In this document: piece after piece, positions 331 through 31,881 of the stretch | Numbering within the stretch: position 1 is the stretch's first letter | Layout: the number at the start of each line of letters is the position of its first letter | From: a virus | DNA: 34,250 nt | IMG/VR virus record: IMGVR_UViG_3300045921_000849 | Span: 1 to 34,250 of that record | Direction: 5' to 3' (one strand) | Notes under the pieces: generated by a model | The model's database searches: none | Seen by the model: only the letters and a program-made list of their open reading frames with translations | Told to the model about the DNA's origin: nothing | Program-made: the position numbers and the translations under genes

Positions 331-1359
331 ATGGCACGCTATTGCAAGGTGGAAATTCGCATGTGGGGAGACGAAAAATTCGCCTCGCTGTCCCCCCTCA
401 AACCCAGTGGTCAAGCCCTCTGGCTGGCCCTGCTAATAGGGCCTTGGCCCCGATTCATTCCGGGGGTGATCCCGGTCGGTTTGGGCGCGCTTTCGGACAC
501 GATTCGATGGAAAAAAAACGCGTTGCTGAAATTTTTGAACGAGATCCGTTCCAAAAAGATGATCGACTACGACATGGCCGCCGGCCTGATCGTCGTCCAC
601 AACGCGCTGAGGCTCAATTTTCCGACCTCGTCCAAGGTCGTTTTGGGCTGGCGGAACGCCTGGCTGGATGTGCCCGAGTGCTCGCTTAAAAAACAACTGG
701 CGCAACAACTTAGGGCGGTTGTTGGGGCCAAGTTTCCCGAAGCGGTGGAGGCCGTTTTGGGGAGATATGACAGCGATATCATATCGGATATCACAGGTGA
801 TACAGTATCCGGCACGATATGCCAAGCCAATAGTATAAAGGAAATAGTAAAAATATATCCCCCTCCCCCCAAAGGGGAAAAAGGTGGTTTTGCGAGAGAG
901 CAAAAAGAGCAAAAAACGACCGAACCGACCTCGGCGAATCGCCGAACGCTTTCGGATCATCCACACCTGGACATACCTGCAACTCGTTTGGCGCAAAAGT
1001 ATGAACAATCGGTGACGATGGCGCATGGCCGAGGCGCGAAAACGGCCATCGTCGAATTGCTCGCCCAACACATCAACGAATCGGAATTAGAAACAGCCAT
1101 CACGAATTACGCTACGTTTTGTCAAACAAGCGGCATCGACCCAACCAAGCGCAAATCCGGCGCGGTGTTTTTTCGTTCAGGGGTTTGGCGGGAGTATTTG
1201 ACGCCTGTTCCGGATCTTCCCGAGATGCAATTTGGGCAGAATAGGCTACCTACGGTCGAAGAAAACATGCGTATACAGGCGCAAAGACGTGAACAATTGG
1301 ATAGAGAATGGCGCGAAAAAAAGGCACGGGAAGCCGGTTTGAAACCGAAGGAGGAGTGA
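331..1359 (+). CDS. Phage replication initiator (lambda O / replisome-organizer-like)
   Basis: A 342-residue protein, probably the origin-binding initiator that loads the helicase encoded next door. The N-terminal 110 or so residues (start MARYCKVEIRMWGDEKF, then a helical stretch ending in GALSDTIRWKKNALLKFL) resemble the winged-helix N-terminus of phage replication proteins that begin by asking whether a plasmid or phage chromosome segment is bound. The middle (about 145-200) is low-complexity with a Pro/Lys run, and the C-terminus is a charged helix. The start at 331 was chosen over upstream in-frame ATGs because GGAGAG lies just before it and because the residues encoded upstream are palindrome-derived. 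It ends 4 bp before the helicase gene, as expected for an O-P or DnaD/DnaC-type initiator and helicase pair. Family placement rests on weak similarity plus context. The linker-coding DNA holds a candidate origin. Confidence 0.7.
   Translation: MARYCKVEIRMWGDEKFASLSPLKPSGQALWLALLIGPWPRFIPGVIPVGLGALSDTIRWKKNALLKFLNEIRSKKMIDYDMAAGLIVVHNALRLNFPTSSKVVLGWRNAWLDVPECSLKKQLAQQLRAVVGAKFPEAVEAVLGRYDSDIISDITGDTVSGTICQANSIKEIVKIYPPPPKGEKGGFAREQKEQKTTEPTSANRRTLSDHPHLDIPATRLAQKYEQSVTMAHGRGAKTAIVELLAQHINESELETAITNYATFCQTSGIDPTKRKSGAVFFRSGVWREYLTPVPDLPEMQFGQNRLPTVEENMRIQAQRREQLDREWREKKAREAGLKPKEE
764..858. other. Candidate phage replication origin: spaced GATA repeats plus AT-rich tract
   Basis: GATAT/GATAC words begin at 764, 775, 787, 799 and 816, that is 11, 12, 12 and 17 bp apart. 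Two perfect dyads overlap them: TATCAC-AG-GTGATA (789-802) and GATAC-A-GTATC (799-809). An AT-rich tract follows at about 828-858, within a GC-rich genome. In lambda the origin lies inside the O gene in the same arrangement of iterons followed by an AT-rich segment. The segment codes for the low-complexity linker of the initiator. Origin function is inferred. Confidence 0.45.
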
Positions 1360-1363
1360 TTGC

Positions 1364-2752
1364 ATGGCCCTCAAATCGCATACGCGGCCCGCTGAGCCGC
1401 TTGGAGCCGACGAGTCGACAATTGCCTCGACTTCGGAACGCGATGTCTCAGGAGCGATTTTACGACGTCCGGCGATTGTGGACGAGTTACGCCGATGGTG
1501 CGTTCCGGAGGATTTTTGCGGGACGTTCTATCGGCAGATTTACGAGGTGGCTCTTGCCCTGGTCGGTCGAGGAGAGTGCGCCGACCTGTCGATCTTCGCG
1601 CAGGAGATGCACCGACTGGACCCGCATCAGTCAATCGGACCGCTCGCTTCCCAGTTGGCCGAGCTTTATCAGAGTGTTCCTTCGGCCTCGAGTTTCGCCT
1701 ACCACGCCCGACAGGTTCGCAATGCCGCGACGCTTCGTCGGCTCAAAACGGTTGGCGAACAGATTGCCTTTCTGGCGGATCGGCCTCACGGCCCGGCGGC
1801 CGAGATGCTGCAAGAGGCCGCGAAATTGCTGGAAACGCTGGCGGATCGCGGGCTTTCTTCCGAACCGCGCCGCCTGCAAGAAGTGCTGACGGACACCCTG
1901 GACGCGATCGATCGTCGCCGGCTGGAGCCCCAACGTCGAGGATGGAAGACCGGGATCGAGTCGCTGGATCAGCAGCTGGGCAGCTTTCGACCCGGCGAAC
2001 TTATCGTTTTGGCGGCCCGGCCTTCGGTGGGCAAGACGGCGGTTTCGATTGCTTTCGCGACGGCGGCGGCGCGTCAGGGGTGCCATGTCCTGTTTGCTTC
2101 TTGCGAGCAACGCGACCAGGAGTTGGCCGAACGACTGTTGGCCAGTGCGGCCTGTGTGCCTCTGAATTCGATTCGTGGAGATACGGCTTTGTCTACGGAT
2201 GAGACCGAGCGCCTTCTGTCCGCGCGCGACCAGCTGGACCCGTTGCCGTTGTGGATCGATGATGAGCCGCGACAGACCGTTCGGCACATTGCCGCCCAGG
2301 CGCGCTTCCTTCGTCGGCGGGTTGGTTTAGGAATGATTGTGATTGACTATTTAGGTTTGATGGATGCAAAGGTTCGTCCAGGACAAAAGCGTTATGAAGT
2401 GGTGGCAGAGATCACCCGAAACTTAAAGATTCTGGCGCGAGACATGGAAGTGCCTGTTGTTGTGTTGGCTCAACTCAATCGCGATGTGGATTCACGGGGT
2501 AGCAACAGTCGGCCTCGTTTGGCGGATCTGCGCGAAAGCGGTTCGATTGAACAGGACAGCGACGTCGTTCTACTGCTGCACCGGCCCAACCATCAAGCGA
2601 CGAATGACGCCAACCAGCGTCTGGAAATCCTGGTGGCGAAACAACGCAACGGTCCCACGGGCGAAATGACCGTCCGCTTTGTTCGCGACCAGATGCGTTT
2701 CGAGAGCGTCGGTGTCGCCCAGCTACCCACGCCTTTTGAACGCAACATCTAG
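1364..2752 (+). CDS. dnaB: Replicative DNA helicase, DnaB family
   Basis: A 462-residue hexameric helicase that unwinds DNA ahead of the fork in the cytoplasm. The N-terminal helical domain (about 20-165) matches the DnaB N-domain that contacts primase (GAILRRPAIVDEL, then YHARQVRNAATLRRL). The C-terminal RecA-like domain starts near 190 (GWKTGIESLDQQLGSFRPGE). Walker A is ARPSVGKT (218-225, Lys224). Walker B is MIVIDYLGLM with Asp328. Further DnaB signatures are VVLAQLNRDVDSR and LADLRESGSIEQDSDVVLLL, followed by AKQRNGPTG. Length is normal for the family. The ribosome binding site GAGGAG overlaps the end of the initiator gene, so the two are probably translated together. A phage copy is inferred from the neighbours, since hosts carry their own dnaB. 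Confidence 0.95.
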   Translation: MALKSHTRPAEPLGADESTIASTSERDVSGAILRRPAIVDELRRWCVPEDFCGTFYRQIYEVALALVGRGECADLSIFAQEMHRLDPHQSIGPLASQLAELYQSVPSASSFAYHARQVRNAATLRRLKTVGEQIAFLADRPHGPAAEMLQEAAKLLETLADRGLSSEPRRLQEVLTDTLDAIDRRRLEPQRRGWKTGIESLDQQLGSFRPGELIVLAARPSVGKTAVSIAFATAAARQGCHVLFASCEQRDQELAERLLASAACVPLNSIRGDTALSTDETERLLSARDQLDPLPLWIDDEPRQTVRHIAAQARFLRRRVGLGMIVIDYLGLMDAKVRPGQKRYEVVAEITRNLKILARDMEVPVVVLAQLNRDVDSRGSNSRPRLADLRESGSIEQDSDVVLLLHRPNHQATNDANQRLEILVAKQRNGPTGEMTVRFVRDQMRFESVGVAQLPTPFERNI

Positions 2753-2903: not shown

Positions 2904-3776
2904 ATGCCCCCCGGTAGCCAAGCAGAGCTTTTCCCGGAATGGGTACCGCCGCCCAAGAGCGGACCGGCGGCGGGGAAGGTGCGGGCTTCCTCAAAGCCCG
3001 ACGCCGGGCGGCCTTTGACACCGGAGCAGCAGGAGCGGGCGGCGTCGGCGGTTGGTCTGGTGTACACGGTGATGGAGCATCTGCGGGTGCCCCAGGCTTG
3101 GCATGACGAAGCCGAGAGCGATGGCATGCTGGGGCTGGTCCACGCGGCGCGGTCGTTTGTGCCGGGCAAGATCGGCTGGGGAGCGTTTGCCTATCTCTGC
3201 ATCGAGCGACGCCTTAAAAACACTCTGCAGCGCCTGCGCAATTACGAGAAGCGGCGTGATGGCGAGGCAGTGGCGGAGGTGGTGATTCCCGCGCCCGAAG
3301 TAGTGGGGGGAACCCAAACGCGAGTGCCGCCCCGCTACCGAGCTTTTGGCGAACTGGCCGAAGCGGTCTACGCCCTGCCGACGCGGATTCGTCAGGCGTT
3401 GTGGTTGATCTTTGTCGCGGGCCGCAATCTACGGCAAGCCAGTCGGAAGTTGGATTGCAGCAAGGAGCAGGTTCGCCATCTGGTCAAGGCGGGGTTGTTT
3501 ACCCTGTGGCCGGTGGTGAGTGGCTACGTGTCGCCCGGCGTCGGGCATCCCGTGTCGCCCGGCGTCGGGCCTGGAGGGTGTCGCCCGACGTCGGGCCCTT
3601 CCCGCGAGTGGACCAGTCGGGAAGATGCCGCCTTGAGGCGCGTGCTGCGTAGCCCGTCTCACGGCCATCGTCGGCTTGCTTCAACGCTGCTGGCCTGGCG
3701 TTGGAATCGCCCGCTGGCCTGTTTGCAGCAGCGGATGGACTACCTGAAAGAAGAATCGACGCGGGGCGAGAGATAA
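2904..3776 (+). CDS. Sigma-70-like factor with a C-terminal Myb/SANT-like domain
   Basis: A 290-residue protein that probably redirects host RNA polymerase to phage promoters. Residues about 45-115 match sigma region 2 (GLVHAARSFVPGK, then AFAYLCIERRLKNTLQRLR). Residues about 150-202 match region 4, a helix-turn-helix (LPTRIRQALWLIFVAGRNL, then ASRKLDCSKEQVRHLV). Residues 236-280 (EWTSREDAALRRVL and onwards) look like a Myb/SANT-type helical domain, a weaker call. The link between the sigma part and this tail, residues about 208-233, is encoded almost wholly by three copies of the GC palindrome and is read as VSPGVG peptides; another copy encodes KPDAGRP near residue 32. AGGAGG lies 11 bp before the ATG. 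The position between replication and head genes suits a middle/late switch. Confidence 0.75.
   Translation: MPPGSQAELFPEWVPPPKSGPAAGKVRASSKPDAGRPLTPEQQERAASAVGLVYTVMEHLRVPQAWHDEAESDGMLGLVHAARSFVPGKIGWGAFAYLCIERRLKNTLQRLRNYEKRRDGEAVAEVVIPAPEVVGGTQTRVPPRYRAFGELAEAVYALPTRIRQALWLIFVAGRNLRQASRKLDCSKEQVRHLVKAGLFTLWPVVSGYVSPGVGHPVSPGVGPGGCRPTSGPSREWTSREDAALRRVLRSPSHGHRRLASTLLAWRWNRPLACLQQRMDYLKEESTRGER
2996..3009. repeat. GC palindrome inside the sigma-like gene
   Basis: A single perfect GCCCGACGCCGGGC in frame near the N-terminus, read as PDAGR. Confidence 0.85.
3533..3596. repeat. Three GC palindromes forming an interdomain linker
   Basis: Copies at 3533-3546, 3557-3570 and 3583-3596, each preceded by TGTC. 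The first two are GCCCGGCGTCGGGC; the third is GCCCGACGTCGGGC. All lie inside the sigma-like gene, between region 4 and the Myb-like segment. Confidence 0.9.
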
Positions 3777-3787
3777 GGGGGTTTCCG

Positions 3788-3850
3788 ATGGCGCGTCGGC
3801 GCAAGTACCGCAACCAGCCGGTTACGGTCGGTGACTACTCCGCCGCATAA
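3788..3850 (+). pseudogene. 5' fragment of a gene interrupted by the IS200/IS605 element
   Basis: The ATG at 3788 has a good ribosome binding site (GGGGG just upstream) and opens a basic N-terminus, MARRRKYRNQPVTV, before entering the IS right end at about 3831. Reading then continues through the IS hairpin to a stop at 3848-3850, giving only 20 residues. If the element is removed with ends at 3831 and 5505, the frame runs straight into the coding region at 5508-6011 and yields a protein of about 182 residues. This is the likely original gene. Confidence 0.55.
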
Positions 3851-3990
3851 ATGCGGCGGCTTCCCTGGACAGCACTCGATTCGTGCTTGAGTCCAGCTGG
3901 CTCCGTCCGAGCCAGTCCTCTTGCGAGGATAACCTGAGCCGAAACGTGGTCCCTATGCAACGACAAGCTACAATTCGGACAGTCGTGCCA
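3831..3990 (-). ncRNA. Probable omega (right-end) guide RNA of the IS200/IS605 element
   Basis: TnpB nucleases use an RNA made from the right end of their own element, overlapping the tnpB 3' end, with the guide taken from flanking DNA beyond the end. Here tnpB reads through the right-end hairpin and stops in AGTAG, as in that arrangement. The guide would be the minus-strand DNA just outside 3831, within the interrupted gene. The upper limit given is a guess; only the hairpin is directly visible. Confidence 0.4.
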
Positions 3991-4992
3991 GCGAACCGAG
4001 AGGTCTTTGCGAACTTCCGCTCCGCAGACGCACGTTTGGCTTGTTCCGCGAGGATCTACCTCTACATACCGAACACCGGCGCTTTCAGCCTTGTGTTTCA
4101 GCACGTTCAGGAAGCCGCCCCAGGCGGCATCGCTGATTGCCCTGGCCAGCCTGCCGTTCCTCAGCATCCCTCGGATGTTGAGGCTTTCGACAACGATCAG
4201 GCCATAGGCACGGACCAAACGACAAGCAACTTGGTGATGATGCTCACGCCGCATATTCTTGACGCGTGCGTGGATCTTCTGAAGACGACGAACGGCTTTT
4301 CTCCGGTTGCGTCCGCGCAGTTGCTTGCGGCTGACAGCGCGACCGGCGCGGCGAAGGGCGGGAAGCTCAGCCTTCTGGTAGCGGGGATTCGGCTCCCTGG
4401 TCCCGTCGCTAGCGGTGAGAAAGTGTTCCAACCCCAGGTCGATTCCCACGGGCGGTTTGCCGCTCTCTACCAGCGGCACGTCGGGAAGCTCACAGGAGAA
4501 TACGGCGTACCACTTGTCCGCTTCGCGTTTGAGGGTGACGGTCTTGATCGTGCCTTCCACGGGCCGGTGCAGCTTGACCCTGATTGTGCCGACGTGCTGG
4601 ACGCGGAGCCGGTTGTCCAGAAGCCGGACGCCATCTCGGTAGGCGGGAAATGTGAAGCTCTCGAAACGGCCACGAGCCTTAAAGCGCGGGTAGCCGGGTT
4701 TCTCGCCGGACCGGACGCGGCGAAAGAACGCTTGAAATGCCTTATCCAGACGGCGCATCGTGTCCTGAGCGCTGGAGAAATTCAGCCGCGAGAAGAATGG
4801 GTTGACGGCCCGTTCATTCTTGAACCACGCCGATTGCTCGGTGTACTTGACGGCTTGTTGTTTGGTCTCCCACATCGTCTTACGCTGTTCCAAGCAGGCA
4901 TTGTACAGTCGGCGATGTGTCTCCAGAGCAATACCAAGCTCGCGCTGCTGGTTAGCGTTGGTCCACAACCTGTACTTGAAGGAACGACGCAT
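3835..4992 (-). CDS. tnpB: TnpB RNA-guided nuclease of the IS200/IS605 element
   Basis: A 385-residue protein, the usual TnpB size. In this family it is an RNA-guided DNA endonuclease, ancestral to Cas12, that helps keep the element in place. The N-terminus (SFKYRLWTNANQQREL, then LETHRRLYNACLEQR) is the classic helix-turn-helix/OrfB start. The RuvC residues appear intact: Asp185 in GIDLGLEHFLT, Glu269 in IVVESLNIRGM and Asp348 in LHRDHVSAQVIL. The zinc ribbon has Cys321, Cys323, Cys338 and Cys341; the first pair is CxC where many relatives have CxxC. The ATG follows the tnpA stop directly. The last 12 codons run through the right-end hairpin. Confidence 0.93.
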   Translation of the reverse strand: MRRSFKYRLWTNANQQRELGIALETHRRLYNACLEQRKTMWETKQQAVKYTEQSAWFKNERAVNPFFSRLNFSSAQDTMRRLDKAFQAFFRRVRSGEKPGYPRFKARGRFESFTFPAYRDGVRLLDNRLRVQHVGTIRVKLHRPVEGTIKTVTLKREADKWYAVFSCELPDVPLVESGKPPVGIDLGLEHFLTASDGTREPNPRYQKAELPALRRAGRAVSRKQLRGRNRRKAVRRLQKIHARVKNMRREHHHQVACRLVRAYGLIVVESLNIRGMLRNGRLARAISDAAWGGFLNVLKHKAESAGVRYVEVDPRGTSQTCVCGAEVRKDLSVRWHDCPNCSLSLHRDHVSAQVILARGLARTEPAGLKHESSAVQGSRRIYAAE

Positions 4993-5391
4993 CTACTTGT
5001 CTCTCTGTTCGGCGATGTACTTCTTGACAACAACCTCGCTGACATGTCCCACCGTGCCTGCGTAGTACGATCGGGACCAGAGAGTCGGCAGGCGCGTGCG
5101 CAGGGATGGAAATTCCTGTCTCAATACGCGGGAGGTGAAGCCCTTCAGACGATTGACGATCTCCGCCACGCAGCGCGTCGGGTCAGACTCGACAAACAAG
5201 TGAACGTGGTCCGGCAGGATCTCCAGAGCATGAACAGTCATCTCCAGTTCCGCCGCCTTGGCGACCAAAAGATCGCGCAAGCGACCTTCTACTTCATCGA
5301 CCAGAACGGGTCGACGGTACTTGGGGCACCAGACCAGGTGGTACTTCAGAGAGAAGATCGCCCCAGCGTTTTTGACGTAACGAGCACCCAT
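4993..5391 (-). CDS. tnpA: TnpA, single-strand Y1 (HUH) transposase
   Basis: A 132-residue transposase that cuts and joins single-stranded DNA at the element's hairpin ends. The HUH metal motif is PDHVHLF with His62 and His64. The catalytic tyrosine is most likely Tyr125 in VVKKYIAEQ, with Gln129 in the usual metal-assisting place. The N-terminal FSLKYHLVWCPKYRRPVL is typical. Length and motifs are complete. It abuts tnpB with no gap, which sets it apart from stand-alone REP-associated transposases (RAYTs) that share the fold. Confidence 0.95.
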   Translation of the reverse strand: MGARYVKNAGAIFSLKYHLVWCPKYRRPVLVDEVEGRLRDLLVAKAAELEMTVHALEILPDHVHLFVESDPTRCVAEIVNRLKGFTSRVLRQEFPSLRTRLPTLWSRSYYAGTVGHVSEVVVKKYIAEQRDK

Positions 5392-10255: not shown

Positions 10256-12187
10256 ATGCAGATTCTGAAGCGTCTGAAGCAGCGGCAAAAAGAAGCGGGT
10301 TTTGCGCACTGGGCCAAGTCGCACCGGGTGGCGCAGCCCGTCCCCGGCCGGCCAGGCGTCCTGGCCTTCAAGGATGCCGACTCGTCGGGTGTCAGCGACG
10401 ATAGCGCCATGACGGCCGACTTCGTGATTAGCACCGCCGGCAAGGATCGGCATGGCGACAGCGTGCAAAGCGAGGGGTGCAAGGAAACGCTTAACACGTA
10501 TCTGGACAACCCCATTGTTTTGCTCAATCACCAGTGCCGGAACGCGCCGATTGCGACCGCTCGCCGGCCTGATGGGAGTGTTTGCTTGACGATCGAGCCG
10601 ACGCGGATTCTTTCTCGAGCGCACTTTAGCAACGCCTCGGACGACTCCCGGCAAACGTACGCGCTGATCAAGGCGGGAATCTTTCGCGGCGCTTCGATTG
10701 GTTTTCGGCCCCGCCTGGCTCGTCGGCTTAAAGCACCTTACGCCGACCAGACGTCGGATCTGCCGCGGGATTTGATCGACTTTGAAGAAGACCGCTGGTC
10801 CCTGGTGTTTCTCAAATGGGAACTGCTGGAATGGTCCGTTGTCGGCATCCCGGCCAACCCGGACGCTTTGGTGATCCAGTCGGCCAACGAGATCCTTGGC
10901 AAGGGCGTGCTCGATTCTCGACCTCTTAGCAGGCAAATCCAATCACACCTTCAACCGCTGGCGCGGCCGCGTCGGCTTTGGGAGACACACATGACAAAAA
11001 GCCTTTCGGCGGCAGTTTCTGGCCAGAGCCAGTCGACCGCGACAGGGGTAAAAAACGCGGCCACCCTGGCCAAAGAACTTGAGGACCAGACGCCCAAGAA
11101 GGCGGTGCAGGCGTTGCTTGTTCCCAAGGAAACGTACGCCGAAGTCACCGACGCCGCCGCCAAGGTGGAGGAGTTGGGCTTGGATGCCAGCGATGTCGAA
11201 ACGTTCACCCTGGAAGAAATCACCTACTGGGCCTTCATCCAGTTTGAGCCGGACCTGTGCGGCGTGAACACCGCTGAGTATGAGATTCTTGAAGGCGGAC
11301 TGATTGCGGTTCTGTGCAGTCAAGGCGACAAGGTGGAAGAGGGCAAAACCTCTCGCGTTGTTGCCAAGCCGAGTCAAGACGGTGGCGAAGAGGGTGACAC
11401 CCAAGGCCCGACGCCGGGCGACAAGGGAGGCCCGACGCCGGGCGACAAGAAAGGCCCGACGCCGGGCGACAAGAAAGGCCCGACGCCGGGCGACAAGAAA
11501 GGCCCGACGCCGGGCGACAAGGGAGGCTGTAACGCGGGCGTCTGCGGCTGCAAGCAGGGATCGTCCGCGGCGCGCGAAAAGAAAGCCGAAGGCGAAGCAG
11601 GCAGCGAAAGCGAAACCCAAACAAGCACGCCCCCCGTTCTGCCGGGCGTTGCTCTCGCCAAAGCCTTGGCCCATATTCTGACAACGATGGCGCCTTTGCA
11701 AGAGAACGCCGCTATCCAGAAAGCCTGCGCGAAAACCATTCGGATTTGGAAGGGTGTTTGCTCCAGCGAGTACCCCGAAGAAACGTTTGCCTGGCCCGAA
11801 GAAGAGACCCGCGCGGAAGCCGACTCCCAGAGCGACGAGGAAGAAGACAGTGAGGACGAATCCGACGACGAGGCGAAGAAGCATCTTTTGGTCTGGCACA
11901 AGATGTCCAAAAAACGGCGGGGCGTTTGCCGGGACGTTGCGGATTGGCTGGGCGATCACGCCGACGAGGTCAACTTGACGCGCGCTCAAAAAGCCGCGTG
12001 CAAGTTCCATCATGCCGCCTTGGTTGCCCTGCTCGCCGAGGTCGAAGAGTCCCCCGAAGAAGAGAGCGACGAGGAGAGCGAAAAGGCCTTGGCCGCTTTG
12101 CTCGACGAGGCGATGGCTCCGTTTCGCGAGAGCACGCAGCAACTCAAGACCGCCTTCGCTCAGTTGACGGGCGTGCGGGTTGGTTGA
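10256..12187 (+). CDS. HK97-type prohead protease fused to a long acidic scaffold-like region
   Basis: 643 residues. The N-terminal 230 or so form the serine protease that trims the capsid during maturation: YLDNPIVLLNHQ carries the candidate catalytic His92, GIFRGASIGF the candidate Ser147, and WELLEWSVVGIPANPDAL is a family hallmark. From about 246 onward the protein is quite different: helical (LAKELEDQTPKKAVQALL), then a palindrome-coded linker of five GPTPGDK units (about 384-421), a Cys-containing patch (CNAGVCGCKQG), a very acidic Glu/Asp run (DSQSDEEEDSEDES) and a helical C-terminus. Scaffolds are commonly helical and acidic, so a protease-scaffold fusion is the likely reading. An internal ATG at 10991 could make the scaffold alone. 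A ribosome binding site is weak at the ATG at 10256 (GAGGATGGTTCC). Confidence 0.85.
   Translation: MQILKRLKQRQKEAGFAHWAKSHRVAQPVPGRPGVLAFKDADSSGVSDDSAMTADFVISTAGKDRHGDSVQSEGCKETLNTYLDNPIVLLNHQCRNAPIATARRPDGSVCLTIEPTRILSRAHFSNASDDSRQTYALIKAGIFRGASIGFRPRLARRLKAPYADQTSDLPRDLIDFEEDRWSLVFLKWELLEWSVVGIPANPDALVIQSANEILGKGVLDSRPLSRQIQSHLQPLARPRRLWETHMTKSLSAAVSGQSQSTATGVKNAATLAKELEDQTPKKAVQALLVPKETYAEVTDAAAKVEELGLDASDVETFTLEEITYWAFIQFEPDLCGVNTAEYEILEGGLIAVLCSQGDKVEEGKTSRVVAKPSQDGGEEGDTQGPTPGDKGGPTPGDKKGPTPGDKKGPTPGDKKGPTPGDKGGCNAGVCGCKQGSSAAREKKAEGEAGSESETQTSTPPVLPGVALAKALAHILTTMAPLQENAAIQKACAKTIRIWKGVCSSEYPEETFAWPEEETRAEADSQSDEEEDSEDESDDEAKKHLLVWHKMSKKRRGVCRDVADWLGDHADEVNLTRAQKAACKFHHAALVALLAEVEESPEEESDEESEKALAALLDEAMAPFRESTQQLKTAFAQLTGVRVG
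10980..10993 (+). other. Possible internal start for a separate scaffold protein
   Basis: GGGAG (10980-10984) lies 6 bp before an in-frame ATG (10991) and would give a product of about 398 residues beginning MTKSLSAAV, exactly where the protease domain ends. Nested protease and scaffold genes are known, for example lambda C and Nu3. This ribosome binding site looks better than the one at 10256. Confidence 0.45.
11405..11519. repeat. Five-copy palindrome array of 24-bp period in the scaffold region
   Basis: GCCCGACGCCGGGC starts at 11406, 11430, 11454, 11478 and 11502, always 24 bp apart, so the reading frame is kept. The unit reads GPTPGDKK, or GPTPGDKG at the outer copies. Spacers are GACAAGAAAG or GACAAGGGAG. 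Confidence 0.97.
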
Positions 12188-15954: not shown

Positions 15955-16055
15955 CGCCCGGCGTCGGGCATCCCTTGTCGCCCGGCGTCGGGCCTGGTGT
16001 GTCGCCCGGCGTCGGGCCTGGTGTGTCGCCCGGCACGTGTCGCCCGGCGTCGGGC
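15955..16055. repeat. Four GC palindromes plus one half copy
   Basis: GCCCGGCGTCGGGC at 15955-15968, 15980-15993, 16004-16017 and 16042-16055, with a half copy GCCCGGCA at 16028-16035. Each is preceded by TGTC. Spacing is 24-25 bp for the first three. The array takes up most of the spacer before the gene at 16087. Confidence 0.95.
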
Positions 16056-17287: not shown

Positions 17288-17379
17288 GCCCGGCGTCGGG
17301 CCTAAAGGGGGTCGCCCGGCGTCGGGCCTAAAGGGGGTCGCCCGGCGTCGGGCCTAAAGGGGGTCGCCCGGCGTCGGGC
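17288..17379. repeat. Four-copy palindrome array of 26-bp period
   Basis: GCCCGGCGTCGGGC at 17288, 17314, 17340 and 17366. The three full 12-bp spacers are identical (CTAAAGGGGGTC). The array is intergenic, which may explain a period (26) that does not keep a reading frame, unlike the 24-bp arrays inside genes. Confidence 0.97.
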
Positions 17380-17935: not shown

Positions 17936-18475
17936 ATGGAACAGCCGATGGAATTTGTTTTCGAGGGCCGGACCTACTTGATTGGTCGGCGGAACTTTGA
18001 AGTGGAAGAACTCTTTCGCCGCTATCTCGAGCGCAACGCACTGAGTGTAATCCAGCGTCATGCCGAAGCTCTGTCCGCGCCGGACTACCAACTGCACATG
18101 GATGCCTGGCGGCGGGATTGTGCCGCCGAGATTTTCGACTTCGAAGGCTACCACGCGTTGATGGCCGGCATGAGTCGACCGGGGCAAAAGGAGTTGGCTT
18201 ATCTGACCTTGGGGACGTTCAACAAAACCGCCGGGGTCAACCGGGCCTTGATCGAACGGCTTTGGAGCGACAAGGCCAAGTGGGCCGAGTTCCAGACGAT
18301 CCAAGGGGCCGTGAACGCGGACCCAAACGGGACAAGCCCCCCGGCAGCAAGCACGGGATGCCCGACGCCGGGCGGCACGGGATGCCCGACGCCGGGCGGC
18401 ACGGAACGCCCGACGCCGGGCGACACGGCCGCGGGGGCACCGAAGGCGCCCGCCGACTCCGCAAGTCCAGCCTGA
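17936..18475 (+). CDS. Probable tail assembly chaperone (gpG-like)
   Basis: 179 residues. Helical after a short strand start (EFVFEGRTYLIGRRNFEVEE, then ELFRRYLERNALSVIQRHA). It lies just before the tape measure and overlaps a second small gene by one base (TGATG at 18473-18477), the classic place of the G/GT chaperone pair. The last 45 or so residues, from about residue 142, are palindrome-coded: GCPTPGG twice and RPTPGD. A candidate -1 slippery heptamer lies at 18337-18343, ahead of the palindromes. The function call is by position and size. Confidence 0.65.
   Translation: MEQPMEFVFEGRTYLIGRRNFEVEELFRRYLERNALSVIQRHAEALSAPDYQLHMDAWRRDCAAEIFDFEGYHALMAGMSRPGQKELAYLTLGTFNKTAGVNRALIERLWSDKAKWAEFQTIQGAVNADPNGTSPPAASTGCPTPGGTGCPTPGGTERPTPGDTAAGAPKAPADSASPA
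18337..18343 (+). other. Candidate -1 ribosomal frameshift site, C CCC CCG
   Basis: The heptamer is in the correct phase for -1 slippage relative to the gene at 17936. A slip would read through the palindrome array in the -1 frame (MPDAGRHG units) and on into the gene at 18475, giving a fusion of about 285 residues. Lambda and many siphophages make their GT chaperone by such a shift. Confidence 0.4.
18360..18421. repeat. Three-copy palindrome array of 24-bp period
   Basis: GCCCGACGCCGGGC at 18360, 18384 and 18408 inside the 3' end of the chaperone-like gene. The 24-bp period keeps every frame open, both the gene's own frame and the -1 frame. Confidence 0.97.
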
Positions 18476-31377: not shown

Positions 31378-31881
31378 TTGAAAGCCAAGACCTGGATTGC
31401 CCTGCTGGTGGTGGTGTGTGCCGGCGCGGCCCTCATCCCGATGCTCCCCAAGCCGGCAGACCCTTTCCTTGAGCCGGTAGAGAAACCACCCATCGAAGAC
31501 ACTCAAAGGCCCGACGCCGGGCGACACGTTGAAAACCCACCCCGAGCTTGGGACCACTCCGGTCCGACGCCGGGCAACACGTGCGGCCCGATGCCGGGCG
31601 ACACGGCCGGCGTTACGATTCGCTCGCTCAGCCTGGAGAGCAATGGCACCTTGCTACAGCTGAGCAAAGACCGTTTGGGTTTGGCGGTCCTACAGATCCG
31701 TGACGGCCAAGGCCGTTGGTGGGCGATTCCCGTGGACAACTTGCCGGCGATTGCCCAGCGATACCACACGCGAGGCCCGACGCCGGGCGACAAGAAAGGC
31801 CCGACGCCGGGCGACAAGAAAGGCCCGACGCCGGGCGACAAGGGGGAACTTGGCCTACTCGAAAAAGGAGACAAGGAATGA
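31378..31881 (+). CDS. Exported or anchored protein with palindrome-coded repeats
   Basis: 167 residues from TTG 31378; a weak ribosome binding site precedes it, so the start is uncertain. An N-terminal hydrophobic helix (WIALLVVVCAGAALIPML) is followed by a Pro-rich linker with three palindromes, a small beta domain (TIRSLSLESNGTLLQLSKD, then VLQIRDGQGRWWAIPVDNLP), and a tail of three GPTPGDK units. The small domain is the only part not derived from repeats or linkers. Function unknown. The stop overlaps the next start (ATGA). Confidence 0.6.
   Translation: MKAKTWIALLVVVCAGAALIPMLPKPADPFLEPVEKPPIEDTQRPDAGRHVENPPRAWDHSGPTPGNTCGPMPGDTAGVTIRSLSLESNGTLLQLSKDRLGLAVLQIRDGQGRWWAIPVDNLPAIAQRYHTRGPTPGDKKGPTPGDKKGPTPGDKGELGLLEKGDKE
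31509..31599. repeat. Three GC palindromes inside the gene at 31378
   Basis: 31509-31522 perfect; 31562-31575 GTCCGACGCCGGGC; 31586-31599 GCCCGATGCCGGGC. All lie in the Pro-rich linker. Confidence 0.85.
31775..31836. repeat. Three-copy palindrome array of 24-bp period
   Basis: GCCCGACGCCGGGC at 31775, 31799 and 31823 with GACAAGAAAG spacers, in frame, read as GPTPGDKK. The same 24-bp unit in the same frame is used in the scaffold-like region at 11430-11515. Confidence 0.97.

Follow-up and report, generated by a model that had tools for sequence, protein, structure and literature searches.

The stretch of DNA analysed here (34,250 bases, referred to below as the window) makes up an entire virus record, which is classed as linear, and the genes for a terminase, a portal, a major head protein and a tape measure protein found further to the right identify it as a tailed phage. 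Its left part contains an O-like replication initiator gene of 342 amino acids (331..1359, plus strand), adjoined on the downstream side by a gene for a DnaB-type replicative helicase on the same strand (1364..2752; PF03796, E 1.5e-77; PF00772, E 8.3e-13; phrog_19). The initiator gene consists of a region for a predicted winged-helix domain, a linker that holds an array of short words, and a C-terminal part. With tblastn, homologues were detected in Citrobacter phage Chris1 ("DNA replication protein O") and in the Actinobacillus phage pPE4 ("primosomal protein").

The N-terminal domain of the product (residues 1-144; 331..762, plus strand) was modelled with AlphaFold2 at a pLDDT of 92. The predicted structure shows a winged-helix core (residues 17-93), in which residues 62-74 (514-552) form a candidate recognition helix, and it could be superimposed on CRP-type DNA-binding domains (Z 9.3, 2.1 Å over 68 residues). 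With Foldseek, no PDB entry matched this model at E below 0.001; the structure alignment behind the CRP comparison returned CRP-type winged helices for the most part, with no replication initiator among them, a result that rules nothing out, and a sequence search of solved structures brought no relevant match. In profile searches, the N-terminal domain matched phrog_25711, which has no assigned function, and phrog_1701, annotated as "DnaD-like helicase loader" (E 5e-10 and 1.5e-5, respectively), and it has the invariant columns of the family alignment. Among viral models, the predicted structure aligned best to a "Replisome organizer" (E 7.8e-7). The O-like gene of the original prediction encodes an initiator-type protein with a homologue in the O protein of Chris1; no similarity to lambda O or P22 gp18 was detected. 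The domain PF04492 (Phage_rep_O), matched by both lambda O and P22 gp18, was detected neither in the window protein nor in any of 40 family members, and profile comparison of the initiator with those two proteins gave nothing (the probability for P22 gp18 was 0.4%). As judged from its sequence, the initiator is outside the lambda O family (PF04492).

The array begins immediately behind the final helix of the N-terminal domain, for which the model is of high confidence. GATA starts at positions 764, 775, 787, 799 and 816, with spacings of 11, 12, 12 and 17 bp, and TATC starts at 777, 782, 789 and 806, so that nine GATA/TATC words lie inside 764-819, whereas any other stretch of the same size in the window has at most four. 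Read on the plus strand, the iteron words are GATATG (764..769), two palindromic GATATC (775..780 and 787..792), GATAC (799..803) and a second GATATG (816..821), the latter 17 bp from the fourth word and off the 12-bp register. Overlapping perfect dyads with arms of 5-7 bp extend over 764..811: 764-785 (7-bp arms, 8-bp loop), 774-786 (6-bp arms, loop of 1), 775-792 (6, loop 6), 789-802 (6, loop 2), 785-811 (6, loop 15) and 799-809 (5, loop 1). Next comes an A+T-rich, purine-biased tract (820..858, plus strand; 74% A+T, 67% purine), a candidate unwinding element; the window mean is 38.5% A+T, and only 0.05% of its 39-mers are as A+T-rich. The five GATA words 11-17 bp apart and the A+T-rich tract behind them had been described beforehand and are as described, and the dyads are indeed perfect and overlapping, although there are six of them and not two. 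The remainder of the linker (859..921, plus strand) is of low complexity (PPPPKGEKGGFAREQKEQK), and its position matches that of a CAGGAR repeat tract in many relatives.

Conservation was analyzed in related phages. L045, the one close relative, shows 99.7% identity in the left part common to both and no change in 764-858; this near identity makes it uninformative for the refutation proposed with the original prediction, a loss of the GATA words in close relatives. All other relatives found were distant. The first three of these (the Syntrophaceae locus L003, Chris1 and pPE4) carry a 12-bp-spaced array in the corresponding linker, composed of words unlike those of the window. An alignment search then provided 80 viral loci, which together with the first set gave 46 non-redundant genes, the window included. 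In 39 of the 46 the best 12-bp self-match was located 50-180 nt after the PECSLK motif of the domain, i.e. in the same linker, and the self-match reached P < 0.05 in 45 of the 46 genes against codon-order shuffles and in 30 against amino-acid-preserving (synonymous) shuffles. With arrays of relatives in the same linker, that of the window can be regarded as a positional homologue rather than a one-gene curiosity. Lag-12 self-similarity of the window array itself was weak (P 0.21 with synonymous shuffles, 0.047 with codon order); its peak was at +102 nt, the expected place in the linker, and its words are 11-12 bp apart.

The commonest word among the relatives was AAGSCTT. Genes that carry it two or more times contain 171 copies in total, where synonymous shuffles predict 46, and 73 of the gaps between copies measure exactly 12 bp. 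Two reading frames are used for the word (read as EAF and as KPS/KAF), and this, along with the excess over the synonymous expectation, indicates that the DNA and not the protein is conserved. Enrichment was seen before the linker (72 copies vs 17.5 expected) and in the linker (96 vs 27.6), but not after it (5 vs 4.6), which served as an internal control. At places where an AAGSCTT array switches frame, neighbouring words lie 11 bp or 35 bp apart (the latter being three 12-bp steps minus one base), a register of 11-12 bp of the kind seen in the 11, 12 and 12 of the window. Other branches have other words: ACCATTACCAAT in L066, GGAACGTTCC in L090, GAATGATT in L003 and GATATC in the window, whose gene has no copy of AAGSCTT in either the domain or the linker. 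No GATATC/GATA array was found in the other family members in which it was looked for, so GATA is identified as the iteron by its position, its spacing, the choice of codons and the statistics of one genome. Many relatives (L051, L054, L056, L063 and others) also have a CAGGAR tract, encoding Gln-Glu repeats, behind the iterons, and in G+C-rich phages this purine-rich strand may stand in for the A+T-rich unwinding tract. The 6-bp repeat contributes to the lag-12 signal of these genes, which makes the AAGSCTT count the cleaner test. In addition, a second 12-bp-spaced AAGSCTT cluster covers the predicted recognition-helix codons in many relatives, about 187-244 nt into the gene (e.g. L049, L058, L062 and L071; GCATACGGGAAG in L071), unlike in the window.

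With respect to function, 23 of 40 relatives matched phrog_1408 ("replication initiation protein") and 22 of 40 matched phrog_6251 ("replisome organizer DnaA-like"). The initiator gene is followed by a DnaB helicase gene in L051, L066, L086 and L090, and by one for a P-like loader in the enterobacterial L105. Members without AAGSCTT mostly show divergent recognition helices; this is no more than suggestive of a link between the helix and the iteron word, as the helix codons themselves contain AAGSCTT and relatedness was uncontrolled. L003 combines the N-terminal domain of the family and a 12-bp linker array with a lambda-O-type C-terminal domain (BLASTP E 7e-14 with lambda O; phrog_391, "replication initiation O-like"). 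From this composition it seems that DNA-binding domain, array and helicase-recruiting part can be exchanged as modules, the N-terminal domain of this family taking the place of PF04492. When viral contigs were scanned for the whole window array, only L045 was retrieved. The looser pattern GATATC N6 GATATC N6 GATA gave at least 119 matches and, among those read, none lay in an initiator of the family, so that the word pattern alone cannot identify an origin. The terminase relatives that were checked brought in no initiators of the phrog_25711/phrog_1701 family, and a plasmid search returned one E. coli record.

The organization of the locus resembles that of phage origins located within initiator genes. 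The lambda origin has four iterons that are bound by the O protein, and unwinding requires the A+T-rich region beside them (PMC7466680); in phage L, six imprecise 11-bp repeats within the coding region of gene 18 probably form the origin, and the neighbouring gene encodes gp12, an expected DnaB helicase (PMC8022706). Like ori-lambda, the window has repeats in the middle of the initiator gene, then an A+T-rich, purine-biased tract (79% A+T and 71% purine in lambda, 74% and 67% here) and a helicase-recruiting gene downstream (PMC7466680). It differs in having short GATA/GATATC words 11-12 bp apart instead of four 18-bp iterons 20-24 bp apart (according to the lambda annotation), and a DnaB helicase gene as neighbour instead of one for a P-type loader, in addition to the lack of PF04492 and of detectable similarity to lambda O. 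The parallel with genes 18-12 of P22 and L lies in an initiator gene that contains its own iterons and has a DnaB helicase gene immediately downstream, and the 11-bp repeats of phage L are close to the spacing in the window (PMC8022706); the repeat sequence, however, is different, and P22 gp18, unlike the window protein, belongs to PF04492. Also close are the phrog_25711/phrog_1701 initiators (e.g. that of Chris1), which share a homologous N-terminal domain and an array at the same place in the linker, with words spaced near 12 bp (11-12 bp in the window, where the lag-12 signal is weak), although the majority have AAGSCTT, many with CAGGAR, where the window has GATATC and an A+T-rich tract. 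The proposal of a lambda-like layout with a different iteron sequence is thus upheld: domain, linker repeats, A+T-rich tract, C-terminal part and helicase gene match both lambda and P22, while the iterons do not match those of lambda in either length or spacing.

Considered together, these features make it very probable, as far as sequence can tell, that 764-858 is the replication origin of the phage, located inside its own initiator gene. We concluded that this in-gene iteron origin works like ori-lambda, with an initiator that is not of the lambda O family. By analogy, the winged-helix domain of the gene's own product would bind the GATA/GATATC words, probably as dimers or stacked protomers, given the palindromic core and a spacing of about one helical turn (11-12 bp). 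Our guess is that the GATATC palindrome implies two-fold symmetric binding, unlike a plain direct repeat. As in lambda and P22, the assembled complex would strain and open the A+T-rich tract 820-858, and the C-terminal part would then recruit the phage-encoded DnaB helicase, allowing replication to begin. The array could also be read as an operator for a phage repressor or for an autorepressing initiator, controlling transcription through the gene; palindromic words at 11-12 bp would suit a transcriptional regulator as well, and the predicted fold of the initiator's domain is common to many regulators. We consider this improbable, since dozens of initiator genes have an array at this same place, behind the part for the DNA-binding domain and deep in the reading frame, a position known for phage origins (PMC7466680, PMC8022706) and not for operators, and since an adjacent A+T-rich tract and a helicase gene are expected of an origin.

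Slightly less probable still is that the cluster lacks a DNA function and is a by-product of an A+T-rich, low-complexity linker with Asp and Ile codons. The peptide DSDIISDITGD is indeed rich in Asp and Ile, and synonymous shuffles alone yield about three words. Nevertheless, a scan of all 4-6-letter words in the 34-kb record placed the cluster at 764 first, and with the amino acids fixed the probability of at least nine GATA/TATC words was between 0.0001 (phage codon usage) and 0.002. For any 4-letter word at any 60-bp place in the gene, amino-acid-preserving shuffles gave P = 0.0003 to 0.001 when words were non-overlapping and had at least three different letters. A cruder statistic that included overlapping runs such as AAAA was not significant (P = 0.09 to 0.28), which favours a by-product; in our view runs of A and C dominate it, and it was replaced by the one without low-complexity words, both being given here. 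The GATA words occupy three reading frames, so they do not reflect a repeated peptide, and the rare codon ATA is used in 5 of the 7 Ile codons of the array region as compared with 13 of 231 in the other genes counted. The positional arrays of the relatives, with motifs independent of the reading frame, also argue against a by-product and for an origin at this place.

An origin elsewhere, for example in the intergenic stretch 2756-2850 after the helicase gene, with the lowest G+C of the window and a few repeated words (AAGCAT, three times), is the least probable of the alternatives, since the word scan shows no array there comparable to 764-816 and the relatives carry their arrays in the homologous linker instead. 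The cumulative GC skew, suggested as a check of the original prediction, has its minimum at 189, near the array, but is uninformative, its range being not significant (P 0.14) and the record linear.

In-gene origins with their own iterons are known from lambda, P22 and L, and the window is a further well-supported example. Beyond it, we find it on balance credible that these genes represent a widespread initiator family without PF04492, with origin iterons mostly 12 bp apart in the gene's own linker and words (AAGSCTT, GATATC, GAATGATT, GGAACGTTCC and others) that change with the recognition helix, so that initiator and origin would change together and the DNA word would be kept in more than one reading frame. 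A search of the literature, covering mostly freely accessible papers, gave no description of the 12-bp pattern in the phrog_25711/phrog_1701 family, and the family-wide pattern seems to be new to the literature searched. The results provide a concrete, testable origin for an uncultivated phage, extend the in-gene design beyond the lambda O domain to a large family of initiators and offer a simple route to origin prediction in metagenomic phages. As the DNA-binding domain and its presumed sites lie within one and the same gene, the family is a ready data set for the analysis of co-change between recognition helix and DNA word.

Some other elements of the window deserve mention. The intergenic stretch 2756-2850 (29.5% G+C, the lowest of the record), between the helicase gene and a sigma-like gene, contains short palindromes besides its three AAGCAT words and is a candidate promoter, terminator or second replication element. 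The sigma-like gene (2904-3776), just past the replication genes, gave marginal matches to sigma-70 regions 2 and 4, below the Pfam cut-offs, and is a candidate for a phage sigma factor or late regulator. On the minus strand of the early region, at 3835-5391, a tnpB-like gene (385 amino acids) and a tnpA-like gene (132 amino acids) of the IS200/IS605 type were recognized by eye, and the pair is also present in L045. Exactly at the edge of this element (3830/3831 in the window), L045 has 929 extra bases (L045:3803-4731), in which the end of a DUF1064-like nuclease gene and the start of a Dam-like methylase gene could be discerned by eye; it seems that the window lost these bases, or that the IS605-like element moved with a deletion. 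Finally, a 14-bp palindrome, GCCCGNNNNCGGGC, is found across the whole window in 51 copies against 0.27 expected, mostly as GCCCGACGCCGGGC or its complement. Examples lie at 11406-11515, 15956-16055, 17288-17379, 18360-18421 and 31775-31836, and the copies often form short tandem series spaced at 24 or 26 bp. Among the viral contigs searched, only the near-identical L045 contained the 20-mer AGGCCCGACGCCGGGCGACA. The palindrome looks like a REP-type repeat spread through the phage genome.
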